From Promethearchaeota archaeon (GTDB lineage Archaea > Asgardarchaeota > Lokiarchaeia > Sigyniarchaeales > SOKP01), in the NCBI GenBank assembly GCA_019894715.1, contig JAGXOA010000090.1:1-38499 (forward strand): DNA of 38,499 bases. The letters run 5' to 3'. Within the stretch, counting starts at the first letter, position 1. Each line of letters opens with the position of its first letter. The notes under the pieces were generated by a model. It was not told the DNA's origin, ran no database searches, and saw only the letters and a list, made by a program, of their open reading frames with translations. Of the stretch, positions 18,490-34,426 are shown piece by piece. The translations under genes were made by a program, and so were the position numbers.

Positions 18490-19473
18490 ATGTTGGATAT
18501 TGTCATTGCATTTATAATTCTTTTAGGAGGAGTTGTACTAATTCTATTTAGTAGTAAACTAGCAGTCAAACATTCTGTTTATCTGGCTTCAAGTCTGGGT
18601 ATTTCAAGTTTTGTAATAGGAATTACTCTAGTTTCAATAGGAACAGATATTTCTGAGATTTTTAATTCAATTATTTCATCTTATTTAGGACATGGGGATA
18701 TAAATGTAGGGGATTCTGTAGGATCAGGATTGAGTCAATTAACTTTAGTATTTGGACTTTTACCAATTATCTGTGGAAAGTTTTTTGTTAATAGAAAACA
18801 ATTTTTAATAATTGGTTCTTGTGAAGTATTAGCTCTTATTTTAGTTTTTACCGTTGTTGAGAAAGGATATTTTACACATTTAGATGCTTTATTCCTTATT
18901 TTAAGTCTTTTTTTTTACATTTTAGTAAGTTATAATGTAACTAAGGATGAAATGGATAAAAATGTTGATGTAATGCTGCTAGATTCTTCTGATTCACTAA
19001 ATCGTAAGAAATTATATTATTTAGCGTTTGCTACTATTGGATTCTTGGGTGTTACTCTTAGTTCAATTATGATTATACAATCTATTATTTTTATCTCAGA
19101 CAAACTTAATATCGAGGAATTTTTATTCAGTTTTTTTATCTTAAGTCTGGGTACATCTCTACCTGAATTATCTGTAGATATTACTGCTCTAAAAAAAAAA
19201 CACTATAATCTTGCTATTGGTGATATTATAGGAAGTTGTATTGTTGATGCTACATTATCTATCGCAATAGGAAACTTATTCTTTCCTCAATCAGTTTCAA
19301 CAAATTTTGCTATCCCTGCAATAATCTACACTATAATTGTTTCTTTAATTGTCGTATTGATTGTATCTAAAAGACAAGTTATGGATAAAAAATCAGGTGT
19401 TTTATTTATCTCTCTGTTTCTTATTTCTATTCCAATTCTCTTTGCTTTTTATTCATCTATGCATATCTTCTAA
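18490..19473 (+). CDS. CaCA-family cation/Ca2+ exchanger
   Basis: A 327-aa polytopic antiporter with the two inverted alpha-repeats of the Na+(H+)/Ca2+ exchanger superfamily. Repeat 1 has SIGTDISEIFNS (49-60) and GDSVGSG (74-80). Repeat 2 has LGTSLPELSVD (220-230) and GDIIGSC (244-250). The ion-binding glutamates E56 and E225 are present. Repeat 1 departs from the canonical GTS(L)PE by reading GTDISE, and the following G-N-x-x-G-S-N is GDSVGSG, so ion selectivity could differ. There are about ten membrane helices with a short acidic loop at 152-170. Prokaryotic relatives (YrbG-like) export Ca2+ in exchange for Na+ or H+. Confidence 0.85.
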   Translation: MLDIVIAFIILLGGVVLILFSSKLAVKHSVYLASSLGISSFVIGITLVSIGTDISEIFNSIISSYLGHGDINVGDSVGSGLSQLTLVFGLLPIICGKFFVNRKQFLIIGSCEVLALILVFTVVEKGYFTHLDALFLILSLFFYILVSYNVTKDEMDKNVDVMLLDSSDSLNRKKLYYLAFATIGFLGVTLSSIMIIQSIIFISDKLNIEEFLFSFFILSLGTSLPELSVDITALKKKHYNLAIGDIIGSCIVDATLSIAIGNLFFPQSVSTNFAIPAIIYTIIVSLIVVLIVSKRQVMDKKSGVLFISLFLISIPILFAFYSSMHIF

Positions 19474-19674: not shown

Positions 19675-20025
19675 TTATTTTGGTAAGTAAAACTTACATA
19701 TTGAACATTGATTTGCTCTTAATCTTTTTTCTGGTCCTAAAACAATTAGCCGTTCTTTCATTGATCCTCCACATTTAGGGCATGATTCAATAAAGTTTTT
19801 CTTTATAGAATTTAATACATTTTCAATTCCTTTTTCTAATTTTAAGATTTCTTTAGCATTTTCTATGATTTTATCTGCAGATATTTTGCCTATTCCTTTA
19901 ATCCAAGCCAATTCTTCAGTTTTTGAATTAGCAATCTCTTCTATAGATCTTATTCCTGCTTGATGTAAACGATCTGCTGCGATAGGTCCTATTCCTCTTA
20001 CTCTAACAAGTTCTTCAGACATCAT
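19675..20025 (-). CDS. Helix-hairpin-helix / zinc-ribbon protein
   Basis: A 116-aa protein with two tandem HhH motifs (VRGIGPIAADRLHQAGI at 9-25 and IKGIGKISADKII at 42-54) forming one (HhH)2 domain. A C-terminal zinc ribbon has C82-PKC and C106-SIC. The combination suggests nucleic-acid binding, as in accessory subunits of repair or transcription enzymes. The HhH sequences resemble those of Rad51/RadA and topoisomerase V-type domains; no catalytic domain is attached. It is preceded by a tandem ATG, and either is possible. Confidence 0.7.
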   Translation of the reverse strand: MMSEELVRVRGIGPIAADRLHQAGIRSIEEIANSKTEELAWIKGIGKISADKIIENAKEILKLEKGIENVLNSIKKNFIESCPKCGGSMKERLIVLGPEKRLRANQCSICKFYLPK

Positions 20026-20180: not shown

Positions 20181-20963
20181 TTATTCTAATTGACGTAATA
20201 CTCCATAATAAGTTCCATAAGCACCTAATATAGATAAAATACCACTTAATATTGAAAAAATAGTTCTAATTATCGCTATATTCAATGTATTTGATAAGAA
20301 TATTAGAATAATCACCGTATAAAGTGCTGTATTTCCTATTATAAAGACTCTCCATTTTTTCTTTAAATCTTTATCTTCAAATCGTCTATAAACTTTTACA
20401 GTATAATAATAACTTGGTAAAACTGCATAAAATATATAAATTGCTATAATATAAAAGAATAGAGGCCATTTCCAGGCAGGGAGCCAATTAGTTGTACCAT
20501 TCATTGTTATTCCTATATTTGGATTATAATAAATAAAGATTGACATAACTAAAGCTATACAATAGATTGCTGTAAATAGGATTTGTTTTTTAGTATTAAT
20601 GACTTTTTCTGATTTTAAGAGAATTAGTATAAATAATAGATTGAAAATAGTACTAAATGCTGTTAGGATCGTTGTAATAAAATTTAATATTAACACTACT
20701 GATTCTACAGCCAGTGGTGCATAGAAGAAATTTATGGAGAGTGCTATTGCCGGAATTATATACTGAAAACTGAATATGTAATTTAATCTTTTTCTATCTC
20801 TCTTTATAATTTTATAGACTAAATATATAAAAAAAGCGACTAAAAATCCTTGAACAAAATAAACTGTTATTATTCGAACTAGTGTGAGTGATGATTCTTG
20901 AAAAAGAATGTTGATCAAATTTTTATCACTATAACAAATAATTATCTTTAATATAATATTCAT
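20181..20963 (-). CDS. Seven-transmembrane protein of unknown function
   Basis: A 260-aa hydrophobic protein with about seven helices (approximately 30-52, 63-82, 86-112, 127-146, 165-188, 205-225 and 228-255). A stretch between helices 4 and 5 (NPNIGITMNGTTNWLPAWKW) is probably extracytoplasmic, and the positive loops (KRDRKR, RRFEDKDLKKKWR) are cytoplasmic. No catalytic or transport motif is recognised. It shares the general plan of the other 7TM proteins in this window but lacks any soluble domain. Divergent from the Hdr/GltD gene with about 160 bp between them. Confidence 0.5.
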   Translation of the reverse strand: MNIILKIIICYSDKNLINILFQESSLTLVRIITVYFVQGFLVAFFIYLVYKIIKRDRKRLNYIFSFQYIIPAIALSINFFYAPLAVESVVLILNFITTILTAFSTIFNLLFILILLKSEKVINTKKQILFTAIYCIALVMSIFIYYNPNIGITMNGTTNWLPAWKWPLFFYIIAIYIFYAVLPSYYYTVKVYRRFEDKDLKKKWRVFIIGNTALYTVIILIFLSNTLNIAIIRTIFSILSGILSILGAYGTYYGVLRQLE

Positions 20964-21121: not shown

Positions 21122-23878
21122 ATGACAGAAACTACTTCTAATAAAGATCAAGATATTAAACATAAAGCTGCAGAATCAATAATAGCTAAAATAAAAGAAT
21201 CTGCAAATTATTGTTATAGTTGTAATAAATGTACAAATGTATGTCCAATGTCACATTTGGGAGTATTTTCACCTCGAAATCTAATTAGTGATTTAATCTT
21301 CTTATCATTAGATGAGGCCTTAGAGAAGAATAATATATGGTATTGTTTAACGTGTGGTCGATGTAATGAGTATTGTCCAATGACAAAAGATAATGTTGGG
21401 GTCAATATAGTAAATATTGTTAAAGAACTTCGATCTTTAACATCAGAAAATGAGCTTTTGCAAAATACATTGGTGAGTTGCCATCACACAAGAATATATT
21501 CAAGTCTTCCAAAACTAATGGCTGATGATAAAATAAAATTTACTAATAAACTAGGCTTTCTAAAAGGAACAGGATTGAAAATTAAGGATAAAGGAGAGAT
21601 TGCCTATTTTTTAGGGTGTATACCTTTCTTAAATGGTACTGCTCCTTGTGTTATTGGTTGTCCTGCTGGAGTTGATGTTCAAGGTTATATATCTTTAATC
21701 TCTGAAGGTAAATTCCAAGAGTCTATTGATTTAATTAGAGAGAAAAATCCATTACCATATTTATGTGGAAGAATTTGCACTTCCCAATGTGCCCTAAATT
21801 GTAATCGTCAATATTTTGATGATCCTGTAGCAATACGAGAATTAAAAAGGTTTGTATCTGATTGGGAAGTAGAACATCCTAATCAAAGTAAAATTAAACC
21901 TGTTGATCAAACAAAAGAAAAAGTGGCAATTATAGGAGCTGGACCAGCAGGATTATCGGCTGCTTACTTCTTAGCAAGGTTGGGATATAAACCAACAATC
22001 TTTGAAAAAGGGGATAAGACTGTAGGTGTTGTAAGATATGGTGTCCCTCAATATAGACTCTCTGATGAAGCTCTTGATCATGATATTGATTTTATTCAAA
22101 ATATGGGTGTTGAAATTATTTTGAATAAAACTTTTGGACCTGATCTTACTCTTGAAGATCTTAGAAATGAAAATTTTAAAACAGTATTTATTGCTGTTGG
22201 TTTATATATACCACGGACATTAAAACTTGAAGGAGAGGATTTACCTAATGTTCATGTAGCACTTGATTTTCTATTAGAAAGAAAGTATAATTGTGTTGAA
22301 AATTTAGAAGAATTTAAAAATAAAACTTTTGGTATTATTGGAGGAGGTGCTGTTGCTGTTGATGTTGGAGAAACTGCAATTCGCTTAGGTGCTACAAAAG
22401 TTGATCTTGTAGATATAGTCTCTAAAGAAACTCTTATAAACGTATTAAAAGATTTACATGATGCTGAGAAAAAGATCATGGAGTATCATTTCGAAACTTC
22501 GACAGTAAATATCACAAAAGAGTCTGGAGGAAAATTAGCGTTAAATTGTTATAAAATTAAATGGGGTGAACCAGATCCCAAAACAGGTAGACGCTCACTA
22601 AATAAAATAGAGGGTTCAGAATTTAAAATTGTAGTTGATCATATTGTTATAGCTATTGGTCAAGGGCTTGATATGGAACCATTAAATATAGCAACTGATC
22701 AAAAATTAAAAATTAAAAGGGGAAAAATAGTTGTAGATGAATTAACTTATGAAACAGGTATTTCTGGTGTATTTGCCGGAGGGGATATAGTTAATAATTC
22801 ATTAATGTGTGCTGCTGATGCGATTGGAGATGGTAGGGAAGCAGCATTTTCTATCGATCGTTATTTACAAGGAATTAATTTAAAGGAAGGCAGAATAAGA
22901 AGGAAAGATTTAAAAAGATCTCCAATACCAAAAAAGAATATTCAAGCAAATGCATGTCAAATAATGAACTTTATGCCAAATAAAGAAAGACTAGTTTGTT
23001 TTGATGAGATGGAATTAGGTTATACTAAAGATCAAGCAATAAAAGAAGCAAATAGATGTCTAAATTGCAATTGTTGTTGTAACTCTGATCAAATTCTCGA
23101 GGATTTTGATAAATCTCTTGATCCTTTTGGTGTTATGAATTGTAATTATGGAAATCAAAGCAATTTGAAATCGATTAATTCTCCTGATTATTTAGAAATA
23201 CCAAAAAGTGTCATTGGAATTCTTAACCAAAATAATATTATTCCGGTTGTATTGCAAAATGAAAAATGTTGTGGTCATGATATTTTAGCTTGTGGAGATA
23301 TGAATTCTTTTAAAAAACTTGCTGAATATAATGTAAAATTATTCAAAGAAGCAGGTGTTAAAAAAATAATCTTTAGTTGTGCAGAAGGATATTATACCTG
23401 GAAGAATGACTACAAATCTCTTTTTAAAAAAGAGGATTTTAATTTGGAGATATATCACATTACTGAATATATAATTCAGGAGAATTTAATGGAAAATATA
23501 ATTTTTCCACAGTTAGACAACATAAAAGTAACTTATCATGATGCTTGTAGACTTGGAAGGTTAGGAGGTATTTATAATGAACCACGTGAAATTTTAAAAC
23601 AAATCCCTGGTATTGAGCTTGTAGAAATGAAAAATTCACGAGAAGATGCTGATTGTTGTGGTGTTAATGCTTATATTAATTGCAATCAAGTGACCAAGAA
23701 TATTCAAAAAGATAGGATTCAACAAGCAATTGATGTCGGTGCTGAATATATAATAACATCTTGTCCTAAATGTTTAACCCATTTCAATTGTTATTTAAAT
23801 GAGAATAAAGAATTAAAAAAGAGAATTAATGTAATAGATATCACAAGTTTTCTTGGAAAAAGATTATTCCTCTTTTAA
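21122..23878 (+). CDS. Fused HdrC-/HdrB(D)-like Fe-S protein with nested GltD-like NAD(P) oxidoreductase
   Basis: A 918-aa cytoplasmic Fe-S flavoprotein. Residues 31-41 and 75-85 hold two CxxCxxCxxxCP ferredoxin sites as in HdrC/GlpC. A CCG (heterodisulfide-reductase-type) domain begins at EIAYFLGC (159-166), then breaks off. Residues 172-655 are a GltD-like module: an N-terminal Fe-S region (PCVIGCPAG at 175, LCGRICTSQCALNC at 214-227), FAD site GAGPAG (272-277), NAD(P) site GGGAVAVD (407-414), FAGGD (551-555) and a Cys-rich end (C647-C653). The interrupted CCG domain then resumes (EIPKSVIGIL, EKCCGHD at 714-720), and a second complete CCG domain follows (CCG 845-847, SCPKC 880-884). It likely couples NAD(P)H to a disulfide/thiol or quinone-type acceptor, possibly with bifurcation; the partner is unknown. 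Stand-alone, no HdrA beside it. Confidence 0.8.
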   Translation: MTETTSNKDQDIKHKAAESIIAKIKESANYCYSCNKCTNVCPMSHLGVFSPRNLISDLIFLSLDEALEKNNIWYCLTCGRCNEYCPMTKDNVGVNIVNIVKELRSLTSENELLQNTLVSCHHTRIYSSLPKLMADDKIKFTNKLGFLKGTGLKIKDKGEIAYFLGCIPFLNGTAPCVIGCPAGVDVQGYISLISEGKFQESIDLIREKNPLPYLCGRICTSQCALNCNRQYFDDPVAIRELKRFVSDWEVEHPNQSKIKPVDQTKEKVAIIGAGPAGLSAAYFLARLGYKPTIFEKGDKTVGVVRYGVPQYRLSDEALDHDIDFIQNMGVEIILNKTFGPDLTLEDLRNENFKTVFIAVGLYIPRTLKLEGEDLPNVHVALDFLLERKYNCVENLEEFKNKTFGIIGGGAVAVDVGETAIRLGATKVDLVDIVSKETLINVLKDLHDAEKKIMEYHFETSTVNITKESGGKLALNCYKIKWGEPDPKTGRRSLNKIEGSEFKIVVDHIVIAIGQGLDMEPLNIATDQKLKIKRGKIVVDELTYETGISGVFAGGDIVNNSLMCAADAIGDGREAAFSIDRYLQGINLKEGRIRRKDLKRSPIPKKNIQANACQIMNFMPNKERLVCFDEMELGYTKDQAIKEANRCLNCNCCCNSDQILEDFDKSLDPFGVMNCNYGNQSNLKSINSPDYLEIPKSVIGILNQNNIIPVVLQNEKCCGHDILACGDMNSFKKLAEYNVKLFKEAGVKKIIFSCAEGYYTWKNDYKSLFKKEDFNLEIYHITEYIIQENLMENIIFPQLDNIKVTYHDACRLGRLGGIYNEPREILKQIPGIELVEMKNSREDADCCGVNAYINCNQVTKNIQKDRIQQAIDVGAEYIITSCPKCLTHFNCYLNENKELKKRINVIDITSFLGKRLFLF

Positions 23879-25427: not shown

Positions 25428-25688
25428 TTATTTTTCTTTTTTCATTAGTTCTTCTATCTTATCTAAAATAACATCCAAGTCAACACTATTAAGAAGTTTT
25501 GTTCCTAAATCAAAAATCGAATCAAGAAAATTAAAAAAGATGCCACTAGTATTTGGATCTTCTTTTATATTTGAAAAGATTTTTTTAATTTCTGCTTTAT
25601 TCTTAAGATGTTTTTCATTTAGACTTTCAGAAAAATCAATTGGGTTAGTTTTTGATTCATCACAACTTGTGTTTTGTTCATTATTCAT
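25428..25688 (-). CDS. Small acidic helical protein, last gene of the PlsC-like operon
   Basis: An 86-aa protein counted from the ATG at 25688 (the alternative ATG at 25700 adds four residues). Either start overlaps the end of the PlsC-like gene, so translation is probably coupled. The first 30 residues are Asn/Ser/Glu-rich, and then two or three amphipathic helices follow (EIKKIFSNIKED, FFNFLDSIFDLGTKLLNS, DVILDKIEELMKK). No domain recognised; it may bind the PlsC-like protein or the membrane surface. Confidence 0.55.
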   Translation of the reverse strand: MNNEQNTSCDESKTNPIDFSESLNEKHLKNKAEIKKIFSNIKEDPNTSGIFFNFLDSIFDLGTKLLNSVDLDVILDKIEELMKKEK

Positions 25689-26376
25689 GTTTAGCACCAT
25701 TATTTTTAGGTTTTCTTAAAGAATCAATTATTTTTATAATGCCTTCAGCGAGTTCATATCTTTGATCTCTATATTTATCTCTTCCTATTTTTTTTTCTAT
25801 ATTTAATGGAGTACCTATTTTTAAAACTAATCCATTAAAATCTAGCATATTAAAAATTTTTCCTTTCTTAATATTGATAGTCAATGGAATTATTGGAACA
25901 TTCACGCCAGCAGCAAATTTAATAATTGCTGACATTGCTTTTATTTGAATATCATAGTCTAATTTAGCTTCAGGGGTCATAGCAACGAGATCATTTTTAT
26001 TATTTAGATAATCAAATACTTTTTCTATAGGTTCCTTATCTTCTTTGCTTTCTGTGCTCCTAAACATTCCCAGCGTTTTTAAAATTGGCCCTATCATTTG
26101 ATTTCTCATAATCTTTGGACTAAGCATAAAATGAATCTGTCTTCCAGTTGCTTGACTTATAACAAATATATCTCTCATTACATTTTCACTAATTGTTGTA
26201 AGTATAGCTTTATTATGCATTGGGATATTATATTTTCCTTCTATTTTTAGATTAAATATTGTATTTAATCCAAAACCAGCAATTCCCTTAGTAATACCGT
26301 AAAGAAGTTTATTAAAATTATCTTTTCCGCCAATTTTATAAAACATATCTCTTTTTTCTTCTTGGATTTCTGTCAT
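25681..26376 (-). CDS. PlsC-like acyltransferase homologue lacking the catalytic His
   Basis: A 231-aa protein with the fold signature of 1-acylglycerol-3-phosphate acyltransferases: LKIEGKYNIP (43-52), the strand KAILTTIS (56-63), the region MLSPKIMRN (84-92), the TPEAKLD stretch (134-140) and VPIIPLTI (around 160). However, the HX4D box reads ENVMRD (64-69), so the catalytic His is replaced while D69 remains, and the FPEG box reads TPEA. It is therefore probably not a normal acyltransferase; lipid binding, another reaction or a regulatory role are possible. It overlaps the next gene by 8-20 nt and follows a 67-aa helical protein after 14 nt, so three genes form one operon. Confidence 0.65.
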   Translation of the reverse strand: MTEIQEEKRDMFYKIGGKDNFNKLLYGITKGIAGFGLNTIFNLKIEGKYNIPMHNKAILTTISENVMRDIFVISQATGRQIHFMLSPKIMRNQMIGPILKTLGMFRSTESKEDKEPIEKVFDYLNNKNDLVAMTPEAKLDYDIQIKAMSAIIKFAAGVNVPIIPLTINIKKGKIFNMLDFNGLVLKIGTPLNIEKKIGRDKYRDQRYELAEGIIKIIDSLRKPKNNGAKHE

Positions 26377-28030: not shown

Positions 28031-29062
28031 TTAGAAGACTTCCCATTTACCACATCTACTGCCCCATCTCGCCACAACTTCATCTTCCTTTTCTGGCATT
28101 TTAACTTGAACAATTTCGCAATTATTTGGGCAATCTCCACATTGGAATGATGATGTTTTAAATTCTATTTCTGAAACATTAAGACCACGAAAAGCAGTTT
28201 CATGCTCATGCTCGATATAATAATCTTTAGCTAAAATTCCCATTCCTAATGCACCCATAAGTACATTATATTTTGGAACAATAATTTCGCTGTTAAGATG
28301 TCTCTGGAATGCTTGGACAATTCCTTTATTAAAAGAAACCCCTCCTTGAAATACAATAGGTTTTTCTAAATCTTTTCCTTTAGATAGATTATTTAAATAA
28401 TTTCTAACTAATGAGTCACATAATCCTGCAATTATATCCTCTCGAGGATGCCCTGCATTTTGTTTATGAATCATATCAGATTCTGCAAAAACAGTACATC
28501 TTCCTGCTATTGATGTAGGATTATTTGATCTGATGGCATAATCTCCGAATTCCTCAATAGGAATACCTAACCGTGTAGCTTGATGGTCTAAAAATGATCC
28601 CGTTCCTGCAGCACATACAGAATTCATTGCAAAATCTATTATTATTCCGTCTCTTAGAAGTATGATCTTACTATCTTGACCTCCAATTTCTAAAATAGTT
28701 TTTACATTGGGATACATTGATTGAGTTGCAACAGCATGAGCAATTATTTCTGTTTTTGCTAAATCAGCACCTACAATAGCTTTTGTCAAATATCGTGCAG
28801 ATCCCGTTGTTCCACAAGCTTTTATTTCAAATTGTTGTAATTCTTTATTTGATTTTACATGTTCTTGTAATTTTGCCATGCCATTTTTTACTACATCTAT
28901 TGGAGAGCCCTGATTTCTAAGGAATACATGACTAAGCACATTCCCCTCTTTATTAATTAAAATAAATTTACAGCTAACAGAACCTACATCAATTCCTAAA
29001 AAAGCGTCTCTCTTAGTGTTTTCCTCAAAAAATTCTGTTGTTTCTCCTTTTGGTTCAATCAT
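28031..29062 (-). CDS. 2-hydroxyacyl-CoA dehydratase activator (BadF/HgdC-type ATPase)
   Basis: A 343-aa ASKHA-fold ATPase that drives one electron into a 2-hydroxyacyl-CoA dehydratase or a related low-potential reductase. The phosphate-binding motifs are FLGIDVGSVSCK (21-32) and LEIGGQDSK (124-132). The bridging [4Fe-4S] ligands of the homodimer are C150 (NSVCAAGTGSFL) and C189 (GRCTVFAESD), 39 residues apart exactly as in HgdC. VFQGGVSFNK is the adenosine motif. The C-terminus adds CGDCPNNCEI and RCGKW, a four-Cys set found after this domain in long CoA-enzyme activases, probably another cluster. The likely client subunits are the DUF2229 proteins at 33.2 and 35.0 kb. Confidence 0.88.
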   Translation of the reverse strand: MIEPKGETTEFFEENTKRDAFLGIDVGSVSCKFILINKEGNVLSHVFLRNQGSPIDVVKNGMAKLQEHVKSNKELQQFEIKACGTTGSARYLTKAIVGADLAKTEIIAHAVATQSMYPNVKTILEIGGQDSKIILLRDGIIIDFAMNSVCAAGTGSFLDHQATRLGIPIEEFGDYAIRSNNPTSIAGRCTVFAESDMIHKQNAGHPREDIIAGLCDSLVRNYLNNLSKGKDLEKPIVFQGGVSFNKGIVQAFQRHLNSEIIVPKYNVLMGALGMGILAKDYYIEHEHETAFRGLNVSEIEFKTSSFQCGDCPNNCEIVQVKMPEKEDEVVARWGSRCGKWEVF

Positions 29063-29264
29063 CTTTACTTATTCTCATTAAAATTATAAGATTCTCTTTA
29101 AAATCAATTAATACTGTGTTAAATGTTTTAAAATTAATTAACTATATGATTAACTAAAAAAAAACACCGTTACATAAAAACTAAATCAACCAAAACAGAA
29201 TATATAAATTATTATTTAATTCAATTTAAGTTTTATACGATTGATGTTAAAAAAAAAATACTCC

Positions 29265-29723
29265 CTAGCTTAAAAATATCATTTCCACTTTTTGTTCAGT
29301 ATTTTTAGAAGAAAGTCCAACAATTTTATTAATATCTTCTCTAAATTCAAGGAATTGAGTAGAATAAGAAAAATCTCTCTTCGTATATTTATTTTTAAAA
29401 TCTTTTATAATTTTATCCAAAACGGGTATGATTTTTGTATGTAAATCTTTATTAAAATTCCGGTGTTTATTCAAAATAAAATATGCATGGAGTTCTGTTT
29501 CTTCCAAATCTGTTCCTTTAATTATATCTTTCTTAAAAGCGAAATTATAATTAGTACTCTCAAAAGACTCTACTGGGGAAATTAATATTTCAGCAAAGTT
29601 TAAAATACATGATAATAATGCGCATTTACTAATTGAGTCAACTTCCTCTTCATGTGGATTTATATAATTCACCGTAATAGTTGGAACACCTCCTATAATG
29701 ATTCCCGTTTCATAAATAAACAT
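29265..29723 (-). CDS. Longin-like domain protein
   Basis: A 152-aa single-domain protein: MFIYETGIIIGGVPTITVNY (beta-hairpin), a helix (KCALLSCILNFAEILIS), three strands (STNYNFAFKKDI, ETELHAYFILNK), a long helix (IIPVLDKIIKDFKNKY) and a tail. The beta2-alpha-beta3-alpha order with a start of 'fI...GGvp' is that of longin/roadblock-type domains, which in eukaryotes and Asgard archaea serve small GTPases and vesicle machinery. The next two genes upstream (7TM fusions) end in a domain of similar plan, so the three probably form a functional group. No individual family is recognised; the fold call is inference. Confidence 0.5.
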   Translation of the reverse strand: MFIYETGIIIGGVPTITVNYINPHEEEVDSISKCALLSCILNFAEILISPVESFESTNYNFAFKKDIIKGTDLEETELHAYFILNKHRNFNKDLHTKIIPVLDKIIKDFKNKYTKRDFSYSTQFLEFREDINKIVGLSSKNTEQKVEMIFLS

Positions 29724-29847
29724 AACTAAAAAGAATTTTTAGATTAACTTTAACATAGTTGTAAATATTATCAAACCAAAGATATATTCATTATTTTTAT
29801 ATTTATTTTTTACTCTAAACAAAAATCTTTAATTATCTATGAATAAT

Positions 29848-30801
29848 TTATCTTATTTTTAATATTTCATCAATAATATCACCAATAGGAGAAAAAATTT
29901 TAAGATCACCTTTCCAATTTGATAAGATGTGAGAATAAATATTTTCTATTGTTTGTGTTACATTTTCTAGTATGTATTGGTATGCTTTAAGAGAATCAAT
30001 ACTTATTATAACACTATATAAGTAATTTCCAGAATAAATTGTAATTTCTTTATCTTTTCTTTCTATAGATGATAACCCACTACTTTTTATGTTCTGTAGA
30101 ATCATCTCAATGCTTACAATTCCACCGGATTTTAATGAGCTTTCTATATAACTTGTCTCTATTCCAAAATCTTTTTTATAAATGAGTAATCCAGATTTAT
30201 GAATAATAAAGATTGATCCTAATTTATCTCTCCAATGTAGTTCTGAAAGAGAGGGTATTTTTGAAAAAAAAATAAATAGAAAACATGCTCCTATTATTTG
30301 AAGTAAATCTGCTATAATTCTAAAGAAAATATATTGTTCAAATATATTTGATCTTTGAATAAGTTGAAAACCTATAGCAATTAAAGAAAATCCTAATATA
30401 AAACTGGTAATTTCTAATTTAATCTTTTTTGATTCTGTTCCTAAGTAATATTTTTTGTATAGATCTCTGTAATAAAGAAAAATGTATACAATAAAGAATG
30501 CCCAAGAAAGGATAGATGGTAAAAAAGAATATTCACCTATAAAAATCCATATTATTAAATATATTAAGACTAATAGACAATAGATCTTGGTAAAGCAATA
30601 TTTTCTAAAAATCAAATGTTTTTTTTCAGTTAAAAATATGAATACTAATGAAACAATAATCAAAATTGAAAATCCTATAAATAAACAATAATTTCTTAGA
30701 GTTGTTGTATTTACATAGAAATCAGCAATTACTATAAACATCCACATAAAAGAATATCCAAGAGATAAATATACATAAACTATTTCTCCATAGATTCCCA
30801 A
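29848..30801 (-). CDS. 7TM protein with C-terminal longin-like domain (start uncertain)
   Basis: The coordinates begin at a TTG that gives 317 aa with six membrane helices (roughly 9-28, 38-58, 69-88, 94-112, 131-148, 158-178), then ELHWRDKLGSIFIIHKSGLL and a 130-residue alpha/beta domain of longin-like plan. The same frame stays open upstream to 30933, a further 44 codons encoding a hydrophobic helix (LLIIEWLLFFILIELCIFLI) and the basic end INKKKKR, exactly where helix 1 of the neighbour at 30927-32069 lies. That extension contains no ATG, GTG or TTG, so the real start is probably non-canonical (ATT at 30912-30910 or ATA at 30930-30928), making a 7TM protein of about 354-360 aa. Probably a membrane sensor for a GTPase-like partner; function inferred. 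Confidence 0.6.
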   Translation of the reverse strand: MGIYGEIVYVYLSLGYSFMWMFIVIADFYVNTTTLRNYCLFIGFSILIIVSLVFIFLTEKKHLIFRKYCFTKIYCLLVLIYLIIWIFIGEYSFLPSILSWAFFIVYIFLYYRDLYKKYYLGTESKKIKLEITSFILGFSLIAIGFQLIQRSNIFEQYIFFRIIADLLQIIGACFLFIFFSKIPSLSELHWRDKLGSIFIIHKSGLLIYKKDFGIETSYIESSLKSGGIVSIEMILQNIKSSGLSSIERKDKEITIYSGNYLYSVIISIDSLKAYQYILENVTQTIENIYSHILSNWKGDLKIFSPIGDIIDEILKIR

Positions 30802-30926
30802 CCTTTTTTTTTTTTTATTAATTTTAATTATCAGAAATATACATAATTCTATTAAAATAAAGAATAAAAGCCATTCTATAATAAGTAAAGGATCTTTTAA
30901 AGAACCCGAAATAGGAAAGGAGTTTT

Positions 30927-32069
30927 TTATTTTTTATCACCCCTTTTTAAAAATTTGTCAATAATTTTATTGAATCCCAACAGTATCGATTTCTTATCCT
31001 TTAGTGTTAGATTATTATTAATTAAAATATTTTTATAGGATTTTTGAACTTGTTTTTTAATTAAATCCAAAAAATAACCAATACTATTCAAGTCTTCACT
31101 TGCAATTATAAAAAATAATAGTTGATGAAGCGAGTGATCTCCATGATTAATAAAGATGTATTGATCTCCATGAGATATTTTTTCTATGTCCTCATCTTTA
31201 TTAATAAAATTTGAAATAAAATCTTCTATTTCTGATATTCCCGTTGTTAATATGATAAGTTTATCTAAAGTTTGAGAAGAATACCCAAGATTAATATTTT
31301 TACTATCATTTTTCTCTGAAAAATTATAAAAAAATATCATTTCATTTATATTAGAATCAATGATAAAAATTTCTTCAATTTTGTTTTGCCAGTTTAATTC
31401 TAAAAGAACTGGAAACTTATACACACCAAATAATATTATTAATAATCCCAATATCATTAATGGAATCGTAACTAGTTCAATCAATTGCTGTAAATTCTCT
31501 ATAAAATATTCTGAAGATTCTTCTGCTCGAAATAAAATAGCACTCAAAAGTATAGAAAATCCTATGTAAATTAAAATAAAACGTTTTTTCGCATTATTAG
31601 GGATCTTTCTAATGATTTTAATATGCGAATAAGTTAAATAGATAGATCCAATAATTAAGCTAAGATATATCAAATTTCTTTCTAAATCCTTAGGAATTAC
31701 AAATATAATAATAGTCGAAATGATAGATGCGATGATCAATACTGTTTTTGTTAACTTTACATTCACGATTTCATCAAATGACTTTCCAGAAAGAGTTATA
31801 AGAAATATAAGAACACCAAATGCTATTAAAATATGAGAGAATTTATATAACAGAAAATGTAATAAAATATCTTCAAAATAATAAGAAGCAATTGTTCTTA
31901 TGAAAACACCACTCATTCCAAATGCGGATAATAAACCATATGCTAGAATTATTCTATTAAGCGTTATTTTTTTTTTTCTAAGTTTAATATATTGGTAAAT
32001 AAGGTAAAAACTAATTTCATATCCTATAAAAAGTGTTATATACAAAAAGGGTAAATAATATTCTTGCAA
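30927..32069 (-). CDS. 7TM protein with C-terminal longin-like domain
   Basis: A 380-aa paralogue of the next gene. Seven helices occupy roughly residues 6-26, 39-59, 70-93, 107-125, 133-150, 165-182 and 198-216. The exit KFPVLLELNWQNKIEEIFII (218-237) parallels KIPSLSELHWRDKLGSIFII in the paralogue. The soluble part (228-380) alternates strands and helices in a longin/roadblock-like order, with GDQYIFINHG and a final helix. The membrane half resembles the 7TM sensor regions of prokaryotic histidine kinases, but the output kinase is replaced. It is the first of a co-directional set of three genes. Its stop codon lies within a few bases of the start region of the next gene, suggesting coupling. 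Confidence 0.65.
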   Translation of the reverse strand: MQEYYLPFLYITLFIGYEISFYLIYQYIKLRKKKITLNRIILAYGLLSAFGMSGVFIRTIASYYFEDILLHFLLYKFSHILIAFGVLIFLITLSGKSFDEIVNVKLTKTVLIIASIISTIIIFVIPKDLERNLIYLSLIIGSIYLTYSHIKIIRKIPNNAKKRFILIYIGFSILLSAILFRAEESSEYFIENLQQLIELVTIPLMILGLLIILFGVYKFPVLLELNWQNKIEEIFIIDSNINEMIFFYNFSEKNDSKNINLGYSSQTLDKLIILTTGISEIEDFISNFINKDEDIEKISHGDQYIFINHGDHSLHQLLFFIIASEDLNSIGYFLDLIKKQVQKSYKNILINNNLTLKDKKSILLGFNKIIDKFLKRGDKK

Positions 32070-32251
32070 GATATATTTTCCTTATTTAATTTTATTTTTT
32101 TTTGACTATTATGCTTATTATATTTATTATATGATTCAATACCTATAATTACATTCTACTATTTGTATATATAAATATTTCCGTTCTATCAAGGAGATAA
32201 AAGTGATATAGTAAAATCCATTTTATTCGTTTAATTTACCCGTCTTCCACC

Positions 32252-32284
32252 AGAAAGCCACGTCCTTTAGGGCGTGGTAGTTCA
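32252..32284 (+). mobile_element. Solo right end of an IS200/IS605-type element
   Basis: gaaagccacgtcctttaggg followed by cgtggtagttca is almost identical to the right end at 94-126 and to the inverted one at 38360. Hairpin ccacg/cgtgg with the terminal tagttca. No tnpB sequence remains to its left, so this is a stripped terminus. Confidence 0.7.
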
Positions 32285-32538
32285 AGTTTCAAATAATAGA
32301 TTACTTTAATTTATATAATTTTCCAACTATTGATTTCATCAATTATATCTTTTGAATAAATATAAAAAATAAAATATTTTAGAGATAAGATCAAAAACCT
32401 ATTTTTAGATAAAGATCAATTATATTTTTTTTATTTTATATAAATGTTGTAAAAAAATAGAATATATATATAAGAAAAATAGTATATCTTTAATCTCAAC
32501 TAAAATGCTTTAAATGATTTAAAAATTATAAAATTTGG
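32285..32538. other. Gene-free A+T-rich spacer
   Basis: Part of the 1.2-kb gap between the 7TM-longin gene and the DUF2229 gene. Between the solo right end and the terminator of RNA copy 1 there is only low-complexity A+T sequence with a run of alternating AT at 32462-32475. No ORF or hairpin stands out. Confidence 0.4.
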
Positions 32539-32545
32539 AAAAAAA
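32539..32545 (-). terminator. Oligo-T terminator of RNA copy 1
   Basis: Seven T on the minus strand following ctctttcttctc. The same context with eight T ends copy 2 at 32842-32849. A conserved U-run directly after the 3' arm of the closing stem is a typical archaeal terminator. Confidence 0.5.
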
Positions 32546-32660
32546 GAGAAGAAAGAGTAGAAATTTAAATATCAAGTGAAAAGGGGAGATTCTATTAAAT
32601 AAAACTTATTTAATAGAAGGCGAAATCCAATTTTATATTCTAAATTCTTCACTCCTTCTT
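32540..32660 (-). ncRNA. Structured small RNA candidate, copy 1
   Basis: About 121 nt on the minus strand. It begins aagaaggagtgaag, whose arm pairs with the 3' ctactctttcttct to close a long terminal stem (aaattt on the inside of both arms). Inside lies the segment attggatttcgccttc, nearly invariant between the two copies, followed by a perfect 11-bp hairpin (ctattaaataa, loop gtt, ttatttaatag). Copy 2 has a different but still perfect hairpin at the same place, which is covariation. A TATA box lies about 26 nt upstream and an oligo-T tract lies at the end. There is no ORF in it. It matches no RNA family I recognise; neither tRNA, SRP RNA, RNase P nor C/D box features are present. Confidence 0.6.
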
Positions 32661-32680
32661 GAAATATTAATCATGACTCA

Positions 32681-32692
32681 CATATAAATATT
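32681..32692 (-). promoter_or_regulatory. TATA box of RNA copy 1
   Basis: catataaatatt on the plus strand (aatatttatatg on the minus strand), within a 20-bp block (aatacRtgaatatttatatg) shared with copy 2 and placed about 26 nt before the gaagg that starts the RNA. Confidence 0.5.
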
Positions 32693-32714
32693 CACGTATT
32701 AAAAAAACTAATAA

Positions 32715-32815
32715 GGATATGAACTTGAACTAATCCAATTTTTATTCTTCAAAAAATAAATTAAAATATAAAAAATCTCTTGAAATTACTATTGTTCTAA
32801 CTAATAATTCATGTA
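32715..32815 (-). other. Possible decayed partial third RNA copy
   Basis: Between the two clear copies the minus strand shows aatacatgaatta, atttcaagaga and aaaattggatt in the same order as promoter block, RNA start and conserved core of the intact copies. The TATA box, the cgcc and the hairpin are lost. Could be chance in such A+T-rich DNA. Confidence 0.25.
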
Positions 32816-32841
32816 TTATATTTAGATTATAATATATTTAG

Positions 32842-32849
32842 AAAAAAAA
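32842..32849 (-). terminator. Oligo-T terminator of RNA copy 2
   Basis: Eight T on the minus strand after cttctttcttctc, directly following the 3' arm of the terminal stem. Confidence 0.5.
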
Positions 32850-32966
32850 GAGAAGAAAGAAGCCGAAATTTGAAAAACAAATATAAAGGGTGAGTAAAAT
32901 TAAACTGTTTTTAGTTTAATAGAGGGCGAAATCCAATGTTAAATATCAAATTTGTGGTCTCCTTCA
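32842..32966 (-). ncRNA. Structured small RNA candidate, copy 2
   Basis: About 125 nt on the minus strand, 306 bp upstream of copy 1 and in the same direction. It starts gaaggagacc and its 3' end ggcttctttcttc completes the terminal stem; caaattt and aaatttg form seven inner pairs. The core cattggatttcgccctct is nearly identical to copy 1. The central hairpin is attaaact / agtttaat with a six-base loop, whose arms differ from copy 1 but keep full pairing. The 3' strand between hairpin and terminal stem is C-rich in both (ctcaccctt / ctcccctttt). Own TATA box and terminator, so it is an independent transcription unit. Confidence 0.6.
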
Positions 32967-32986
32967 ATTATTATAATCTGAATTTA

Positions 32987-32998
32987 CATATAAATATT
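32987..32998 (-). promoter_or_regulatory. TATA box of RNA copy 2
   Basis: catataaatatt on the plus strand, identical to copy 1, about 25 nt before the predicted RNA start. The conserved spacing in both copies supports a real promoter. Confidence 0.5.
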
Positions 32999-33183
32999 CA
33001 TGTATTTTAGAGTAGAAAAATAAAGTTTTTTATCTGAATAAAATGAGTTGGATTATTTGGATATTTACCCAACATTATTTAAAAAAAACACCAATATTCT
33101 TAAAGAATTTTATTAGCTTATTATAGTTTTTCTACAAAAAATGAAGAAAAATTCTAAAATTTTACTATAATAACAAAAAAAAT

Positions 33184-33210
33184 CCCATTCCTTTAGATTT
33201 TGGTAGTTTA
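33184..33210 (+). mobile_element. Short IS200/IS605-type end scrap
   Basis: cccattccttta, as in the left-end hairpin at 38112, is followed at once by ttttggtagttta, resembling the right-end terminus. About 27 bp; the interior is gone. Confidence 0.4.
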
Positions 33211-33250
33211 ATTGGATAAATTTAAAGAGAATTAATATTCTTGTTTTTAA

Positions 33251-34426
33251 TTAGCTCTGTTGAATTAATTTAAGGCATTCTTGATAAAAATGATTCCCAT
33301 ATTTACCATTTGCATGGATTGGAGTTTTAATAACATTATCTTTTTTTTTATTCCTCCTTCCTTCCATTAAATCTACAAAGGCTTCTAATCGTGTTCTGAA
33401 TCCTTCTATTCCACTTTGTTCATCAAATGAGAAATATATAATTGGTAGATCATATATCCCTTTTAATTTATTTGTTATTATCGTTCGGGCTGTTACTTCT
33501 GGCATACAAGTAAATGGATATGAATGAACGAAACCATCAAATCCTGCTTTAGCATTATCTATATATTGACCTATTACCCAAACACACTCTCCCCCTATAT
33601 CCATAGGGATATACGGTTTAGCTAGATGCTCTAACCATTTTCTATGATAATTTAAATGAAATTTATGAACCATCCAATCCCATAAACTTAAACATTGATA
33701 TAGTTCAACACCCATTTCTCCTAGTTTTCTTCTAATATCTAGATTAACATATGGTTCTAAAGATATATAGATTTCTCCAGCAAGTCCTACTTTTAATGGT
33801 CTATGATTTTTATCAATATCTAACTTTTCAAAGTCCTCCCTAATGACAGATCTAAAATTTCTAAGCCCTGTATTAGTATTTGTATCATCTAATTTATGGA
33901 TTAAACTACTGACTATTTTTGTAGTATCGCCTTGTTTTCTCTCGTATGCTCTAAAAACGCCTTCGGCCGTTTGAATATCTTCAAGATATTTTGCTTTTTT
34001 TAAAAAGTAGATGACTGATTTTACAAATTTAGGATAAAGAGATAAACTTGGTTTACCTGATACTTTAAAGAGGGTTTTTACCCATTGAAAATCTAATAAA
34101 TCTGCTTGATCTAGTGGTATTAAACGAAATTTATCATATCCTGCATCTCTTAAAATTCTTTCTTGCACGCTTGCATAGAATCCAAATCTACAAGGTCCAC
34201 AATCAATAGCCATTATAATTGTATCTGCTCCTTTATCAAGAGCACTTTTAAGTTCTCCTAATGTTGGTTTAAATGGAAAACATACAAATTCAGGACTATG
34301 TTTTACACCAAATTTAACCAATTCTCTATTTGCTGGATCAGGTACAATAACCTCAACTCCGAGATTTTCGATTAAAGCTTTAAAAGCTACCCATGAGGTA
34401 CCCATTCTTGGAAAGGTTACTCGCAT
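33251..34426 (-). CDS. DUF2229 / HgdB-type CoA-dehydratase-like subunit
   Basis: A 391-aa protein of the acyl-CoA dehydratase/reductase-like (DUF2229, HgdB-related) family that cooperates with BadF/HgdC ATPases. VTFPRMGTSW opens the first Rossmann-like half. Likely cluster ligands are C49 (EFVCFPFKP) and C76-GPC79, with further Cys in GGECVWVIGQ and YPFTCMPEV. The C-terminus FDEQSGIEGFRTRLEAFVDL is the family's closing motif, also present in the paralogue at 35048-36121 (MDEHSGEAGMLTRIESFVEM). Substrate unknown; some members belong to benzoyl-CoA-reductase-like or 2-hydroxyacyl-CoA dehydratase systems. Own promoter at 34469-34480. Confidence 0.75.
   Translation of the reverse strand: MRVTFPRMGTSWVAFKALIENLGVEVIVPDPANRELVKFGVKHSPEFVCFPFKPTLGELKSALDKGADTIIMAIDCGPCRFGFYASVQERILRDAGYDKFRLIPLDQADLLDFQWVKTLFKVSGKPSLSLYPKFVKSVIYFLKKAKYLEDIQTAEGVFRAYERKQGDTTKIVSSLIHKLDDTNTNTGLRNFRSVIREDFEKLDIDKNHRPLKVGLAGEIYISLEPYVNLDIRRKLGEMGVELYQCLSLWDWMVHKFHLNYHRKWLEHLAKPYIPMDIGGECVWVIGQYIDNAKAGFDGFVHSYPFTCMPEVTARTIITNKLKGIYDLPIIYFSFDEQSGIEGFRTRLEAFVDLMEGRRNKKKDNVIKTPIHANGKYGNHFYQECLKLIQQS

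Follow-up and report, generated by a model that had tools for sequence, protein, structure and literature searches.

The nesting of a GltD module in an Hdr subunit is known from type III HdrA of ANME-1 and Bathyarchaeota, published in 2025, where GltD sits beside an Fe-S domain and is proposed to let NADH electrons enter (PMC12054007). The host in that case is HdrA, a bifurcating flavoprotein, and the insertion lies in its inserted ferredoxin domain; the same paper mentions HdrD, but not as a GltD host. Here, we analysed a stretch of 38,499 nucleotides (hereafter the window) from a Promethearchaeota archaeon (contig JAGXOA010000090.1), in which a gene at 21122..23878 (+ strand) encodes a 918-residue protein with no internal stop. 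In this protein, unlike type III HdrA, the host is an HdrD/CCG protein, the domain that is split is a non-cubane-cluster domain, and the host halves match HdrC and HdrB rather than HdrA. In the papers that we searched, we found no description of GltD nested in a CCG/HdrD or FrhB host.

The closest solved structures of the insert are the GltD domains of NfnABC and StnC (PDB 9bov, 9n5u, 8oh5), which also lie within other large chains (in StnC, fused to a NuoG-like domain) but are not nested in a CCG domain. On the host side, soluble HdrB/HdrC and HdrD-like proteins (5odc, 8rvu; EtfD, 9ojn; TfrB) have the same HdrC-HdrB order and fold as the window protein, which differs from them by an interruption of ~517 residues, by the lack of a fifth Cys in its first CCG domain (CCG1) and by scores under the TfrB and HdrC cut-offs (TfrB, PRK06259: 125.6 bits for the whole protein against a curated cut-off of 385). 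The NCBIfam family NF045663 (pyridine nucleotide-disulfide oxidoreductase/dicluster-binding protein) matches the insert and, separately, an uninterrupted HdrD-like protein; it is, however, an apparently linear arrangement of GltD, dicluster and CCG domains with GltD first, and the window protein reaches only 203.5 bits against its cut-off of 530.

The original prediction, that a GltD-like oxidoreductase is nested inside the first CCG domain of an Hdr-like protein, was accurate in its motifs and residue numbers. The chain opens with an HdrC-like domain (residues 28-87, Pfam Fer4_8; 21203..21382, +) with a pair of HdrC-type [4Fe-4S] motifs made up of Cys 31/34/37/41 and Cys 75/78/81/85, and the profile of the uninterrupted family matches HdrC structures here. 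The first part of CCG1 follows at residues 158-170 (GEIAYFLGCIPFL; 21593..21631, +), with EIAYFLGC at 159-166 and the ligand C166, and aligns with uninterrupted homologues and HdrB. The inserted module then spans residues 172-662 (21635..23107, +) and has the GltD order, a Fer4_20 domain followed by a FAD/NAD(P)-binding Pyr_redox domain: the Fe-S domain at 173-252 (21638..21877, +; Fer4_20 positions 29-111) and the FAD and NAD(P) domains at 267-571 (Pyr_redox_2; 21920..22834, +). Past a linker at 663-688 (23108..23185, +), in which Y676 and G677 are invariant among nested proteins, CCG1 resumes at 689-795 (23186..23506, +) with EKCCGHD at 714-720, ligands C716, C717 and C753, and G756 in the position of the fifth Cys. 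The second CCG domain (CCG2, residues 803-888, the best Pfam CCG match; 23528..23785, +) is complete as claimed, with all five Cys (C809, C845, C846, C881, C884), and the host thus has the HdrD architecture of an HdrC-like di-[4Fe-4S] domain followed by two CCG domains. NCBIfam matches (GltD-type families at 169-657, TfrB/GlpC/LdhH-type CCG families at 690-913) all remained under their curated cut-offs.

That the module interrupts a pre-existing domain is documented by proteins that lack it. Residues 1-171 and 689-917 could be aligned to uninterrupted HdrD-like proteins of ~380-440 residues from related genomes, and the two host halves are 7-30 residues apart in 25 uninterrupted homologues, all without the module, versus 507-520 in 37 nested proteins. 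In the uninterrupted chain the strand GEIAYFxGCLPxM leads after a few residues to the helix xPKxIIxLLNE and then to PVVLNEKCCGHD; the window protein has its insert between IPFL (170) and PDYLEIPKSVIG (688 onward), and the junctions match across nested proteins in the alignment. Some of the uninterrupted genes occupy the same locus. In the window, the nested gene is preceded by a Na+/Ca2+ exchanger gene (18490..19473, +), a small conserved gene (cluster 10; 19675..20025, -) and, directly upstream, a gene for a protein with no Pfam match (cluster 1; 20181..20963, -), and this order and these orientations recur around an uninterrupted gene at loci L044 and L159. At L045, L160 and L161 the uninterrupted gene is flanked by the same markers, partly rearranged or ended by contig edges, and the acyltransferase-like gene downstream in the window (25681..26376, -) is also present at L161. 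The neighbourhood shared by these five related genomes therefore identifies an orthologous empty site, which documents a difference between species. In a tree of the host halves every nested protein fell within one clade (support 100/99), consistent with a single acquisition of GltD. On our preferred reading, the insertion took place in the ancestor of this clade; it lies between C166 and C716/C717, which would ligate one and the same host cluster.

Structure prediction agreed with this arrangement. A first AlphaFold2 model was confident in the GltD part, where residues 169-662 matched NfnABC and StnC GltD domains with Z 42.5-44.4, and was unusable for the junction, as uninterrupted rows were misaligned onto GltD in its alignment. 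In a second model, whose alignment placed the uninterrupted HdrD and the HdrB rows correctly, residues 151-160 had a predicted local distance difference test score (pLDDT) of 94, residues 161-170 had 67 and most values across residues 691-790 were 79-96. In VIA-align, its residues 158/159-918, with the insert skipped, superposed on HdrB 1-275 (Z 19.5-20.1, root-mean-square deviation 2.4-2.5, 235 aligned residues) and the model matched EtfD with Z 22.9. Residues 159-170 and 690-760 thus fall in one CCG fold, as had been proposed, in a model that HdrB rows helped to steer; we count it as concordant with the sequence evidence and claim no independent proof from it. A hidden Markov model of the uninterrupted family likewise matched HdrC and then HdrB from HdrB residue 2.

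Two explanations would remove the nesting altogether. In a simple linear fusion, residues 159-170 would be a linker of GltD and 689-918 would form two self-standing CCG domains. GltD and HdrD-like modules do exist linearly fused, in a Methanosarcinales contig (L127:3765-6536, +; a 923-residue chain of GltD, HdrC and HdrB that scores under the NF045663 cut-off). Yet the uninterrupted homologues, five of them at the same locus, run from YFxGC to the CCGHD helix with only 7-30 residues between, HdrB itself starts with the equivalent YYPGC, and the model aligns from residue 158 onward with HdrB from residue 1; since empty-site homologues exist, linear fusion is refuted at the level of sequence and we regard it as very improbable. 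A fault of assembly or binning, or decay of the gene, could be suspected as the genomes are mostly fragmented, many-contig assemblies, and the named records among the matches listed are metagenome-assembled. We rejected this possibility, whose probability we consider negligible: full-length genes recur in 34 genomes on many contigs with matching junctions, their ligands are invariant, and the ratio of nonsynonymous to synonymous substitution rates (dN/dS) between the window gene and a relative from the same genus is ~0.09, in insert and host alike. Judged by its substitutions, the nested gene is under purifying selection.

Across 12 diverse nested proteins the invariant residues comprise the eight HdrC-type Cys, GltD Cys 176/180/215/219/223/227 and C646/C649/C652, C166/C716/C717/C753 of CCG1 and C809/C845/C846/C881/C884 of CCG2. 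CCG2 therefore holds the full five-Cys non-cubane ligand set; CCG1 holds four of the five canonical Cys, its CxxC being replaced by CAEG, as in most uninterrupted relatives. With the fifth Cys missing from CCG1, only one of the two non-cubane sites expected in the chain has all five Cys, and the other should be degenerate.

The inserted module is itself rearranged. The segment ERLVCFDEMELGYTKDQAIKEANRCLNC (622-649, within residues 618-653; 22973..23080, +) aligns to 4ylf_B 15-42 and 5jca_L 18-45, which directly precede the first Fe-S motif of canonical GltD/NfnL, and the rest of the insert aligns to 4ylf_B 44-461 and 5jca_L 50-471. The EAxRCLxC segment is thus N-terminal in canonical GltD and C-terminal in the window insert, as it is in NfnABC and StnC. 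This displacement makes the insert a circular permutant whose two ends are contiguous in the canonical fold. A motif search over 134 GltD modules classified 100 as permuted, 12 as canonical, none as both and 22 as neither, and the canonical class contained no nested module. In the openly accessible literature, our search found no report of GltD circular permutation.

Permuted GltD also occurs in two other hosts. In the 1648-residue Lokiarchaeota protein of L043, GltD-free HdrA 7-152 and 164-423 align to residues 9-153 and 644-904, and the flanks of GltD in FrhB-like proteins of 823 residues align to two parts of GltD-free FrhB. The insertion falls between Cys motifs of the host Fe-S site in all three hosts (HdrD-CCG, FrhB and HdrA), given what we take to be the cluster ligands of FrhB. 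The FrhB-nested proteins (~815-824 residues; L031:1099-3570, -, with relatives at L032-L034 and L037-L040, in three families of the order) carry the same permuted type in an FrhB/FdhB-like host, and their inserts are the most similar to that of the window outside HdrD (up to 53%). The HdrA-nested genes (L043:5548-10494, -; L042:8982-13928, +) lie directly downstream of an uninterrupted hdrD-like gene and encode a GltD-split HdrA followed by a second HdrA, ferredoxin and FlpD domains, that is, type III HdrA in Lokiarchaeota. More tentatively, we propose that permuted GltD may be a general plug-in flavin module of anaerobes, inserted between host Fe-S ligands so as to wire NAD(P)H in, with a nucleotide lobe that can be exchanged between hosts and thereby change cofactor use, and that the HdrD-nested form may be a stand-alone NAD(H):Fe-S hub replacing HdrA. 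On this proposal the module could be inserted between host ligands because its permuted ends adjoin beside its own Fe-S clusters, which offers a structural reason for nesting.

The nucleotide lobe has a history of its own. The clade of the window protein (clade A) and its sister clade (clade B) occupy comparable loci in equally diverged hosts; at a host identity of 55-68%, however, inserts are 71-83% identical within clade A and only 44-52% between A and B. Both ends of the clade A insert (174-300 and 586-657) resemble clade B, whereas its middle (341-530, the NAD(P) lobe) resembles FrhB-nested inserts (54-67% versus 20-41%). A guest tree of the whole module had favoured a wholesale origin of the clade A insert from FrhB-nested proteins (p-AU 0.0016), which we rejected as the segment identities reveal a mosaic; for the same reason, a reading of two independent insertions was dropped. 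In the simplest reading, the lobe was exchanged between hosts, in a direction that we leave open. In the clade A lobe the GGGxVA motif is retained, VDI (in VDIVSKE) takes the place of the YRR found in NADPH-type modules, and the Arg pair that binds NADPH next to the second Rossmann strand, on its C-terminal side, is absent although clade B has it. In Rossmann folds, loss of this Arg pair suggests NADH over NADPH, which may hold for the window clade. The GxGxxA criterion of PMC12054007 points the other way for this lobe.

The search for the same insertion point in other Asgard proteins, called for by the original prediction, recovered full-length nested homologues in 34 of the 227 genomes searched in the phylum, all from the Lokiarchaeota family of the window, with two copies in some genomes and further nested fragments at contig ends. 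Among the matches listed, the named records are Lokiarchaeota metagenome-assembled genomes (L062, L063), which confirms an Asgard affiliation. When three other phyla were sampled under strict thresholds, GltD-only matches or none were returned (two candidates scored per genome, and one search with no positive), and the nested form is thus likely, though not proven, to be absent outside Asgard. The viral contigs searched contained no relative. In several bacteria, HdrC, HdrB and GltD-bearing genes are separate but adjacent. Together with the Methanosarcinales fusion, this shows that the GltD-Hdr partnership recurs, while nesting in HdrD was seen only in the window's family.

Gene neighbourhoods differ between the two forms. 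In counts made by hand over loci that are related to one another, a co-directional hdrA lies directly downstream in 14 of 24 uninterrupted loci and in none of the 29 nested loci with room for one, and a gene of the aldehyde ferredoxin oxidoreductase (AFOR) family, here a tungsten aldehyde oxidoreductase, is found no further than ~5.2 kb away at 22 of the 31 nested loci and at none of the 24 uninterrupted ones. Fisher p-values calculated from these counts are therefore stronger than the evidence warrants. A 185-residue Fe-S gene nearly always accompanies AFOR (Pfam, NCBIfam). In ~12 nested loci the next gene is NfnA-like, in most followed by a linear FrhB-GltD fusion. Such fusions (L048:8305-11043, -; L054:4396-7140, -) have GltD in canonical order and, with the adjoining NfnA-like gene, are possibly an F420-linked Nfn transhydrogenase. 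A small reductive-dehalogenase-like protein (cluster 6; L048:7423-8286 and equivalents; under the cut-off of the dehalogenase model) is encoded near many nested genes.

We consider it fairly probable that the window protein is an HdrD-like electron-transfer protein (HdrC and HdrB in one chain) in which an inserted, permuted GltD connects directly to the Hdr clusters and substitutes for HdrA; with AFOR encoded near most nested genes, its likeliest role would be to exchange electrons between NAD(P) and aldehyde/acid oxidoreduction. NADH (NADPH in the sister clade) would pass hydride to the GltD FAD, and electrons could then reach the degenerate CCG1 site by way of both [4Fe-4S] clusters of GltD; C176, the first ligand of these clusters, and C166 of CCG1 are ten residues apart. 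From CCG1 they would proceed to the five-Cys non-cubane site of CCG2, the HdrC-like clusters or both, and from there to a partner, probably the tungsten aldehyde oxidoreductase and its Fe-S subunit, or the flow may run in the opposite direction. The insert would thereby supply the flavin input for which the uninterrupted form probably depends on HdrA. Several observations weigh against this role. The window gene stands alone among unrelated genes, with neither AFOR nor NfnA adjacent (an AFOR orthologue, 79% identical, is on another contig of the genome), and four HdrA genes are present elsewhere in the same genome; at L051, L207 and L208 a convergent FrhB-FlpD-HdrA set lies ~1 kb downstream of the nested gene. 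The AFOR linkage comes from one family and is phylogenetically non-independent, and at some loci AFOR is oriented divergently instead of co-directionally. CCG1 lacks a cluster ligand, the host-fold model was steered by HdrB rows and is poor in its GltD part, and we infer every functional step.

The same components could serve other chemistries. The GltD FAD might act like that of NfnB and bifurcate electrons to ferredoxin and to a high-potential acceptor at CCG2, forming a true bifurcating unit with no HdrA; the insert indeed matches NfnABC domains, and at ~12 loci an NfnA-like gene immediately follows the nested gene, mostly with the FrhB-GltD fusion behind it. Against this, the nested gene has no neighbouring NfnA in the window, nor at most clade A loci, and StnC, with the same GltD fold, has lost bifurcation, so that this type of GltD can serve as a plain NADPH port (PMC10482914); we therefore find it unlikely. 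Of the original suggestion of a bifurcating unit without HdrA, gene context lends indirect support to the second half, hdrA usually coming directly after uninterrupted genes and not after nested ones. Alternatively, the protein might be a stand-alone soluble reductase that uses NAD(P)H to reduce a small-molecule disulfide or quinone at CCG2. The five Cys kept in CCG2, a monocistronic window gene and a best host-family resemblance to TfrB would fit, but that resemblance falls far short of the TfrB cut-off, no thiol-coenzyme genes were recognised among the scanned window genes, and AFOR is nearby in most relatives; we judge this reading improbable. The heterodisulfide or quinone reductase originally envisaged is not supported, CCG1 lacking one ligand and no curated family cut-off being reached, while the NAD(P)H-linked electron input predicted along with it is well supported by the GltD module.

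Altogether, a strategy known from HdrA in a handful of methane-metabolising archaea extends in Lokiarchaeota to another Hdr subunit and, with FrhB, to a third host. These proteins suggest that a flavin module can be inserted straight into a metal site and so rewire anaerobic energy metabolism, and the broader pattern of permuted GltD between Fe-S ligands merits a dedicated survey. For Asgard archaea, the closest to eukaryotes, the preferred HdrD-GltD reading makes a testable prediction for energy metabolism, namely NAD(H)-linked exchange with aldehyde oxidoreductase chemistry that bypasses HdrA.

Two further observations concern the window genome. Two of its HdrA genes contain an in-frame TGA (G000:C282:4622-5857 and G000:C45:15118-16386; L182, L183), possibly encoding selenocysteine. 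In the window itself, positions 28031-34426 (-) carry a BcrAD/BadFG-type ATPase and a CoA-activase-like (DUF2229) gene, which suggests a cluster resembling 2-hydroxyacyl-CoA-dehydratase activators.

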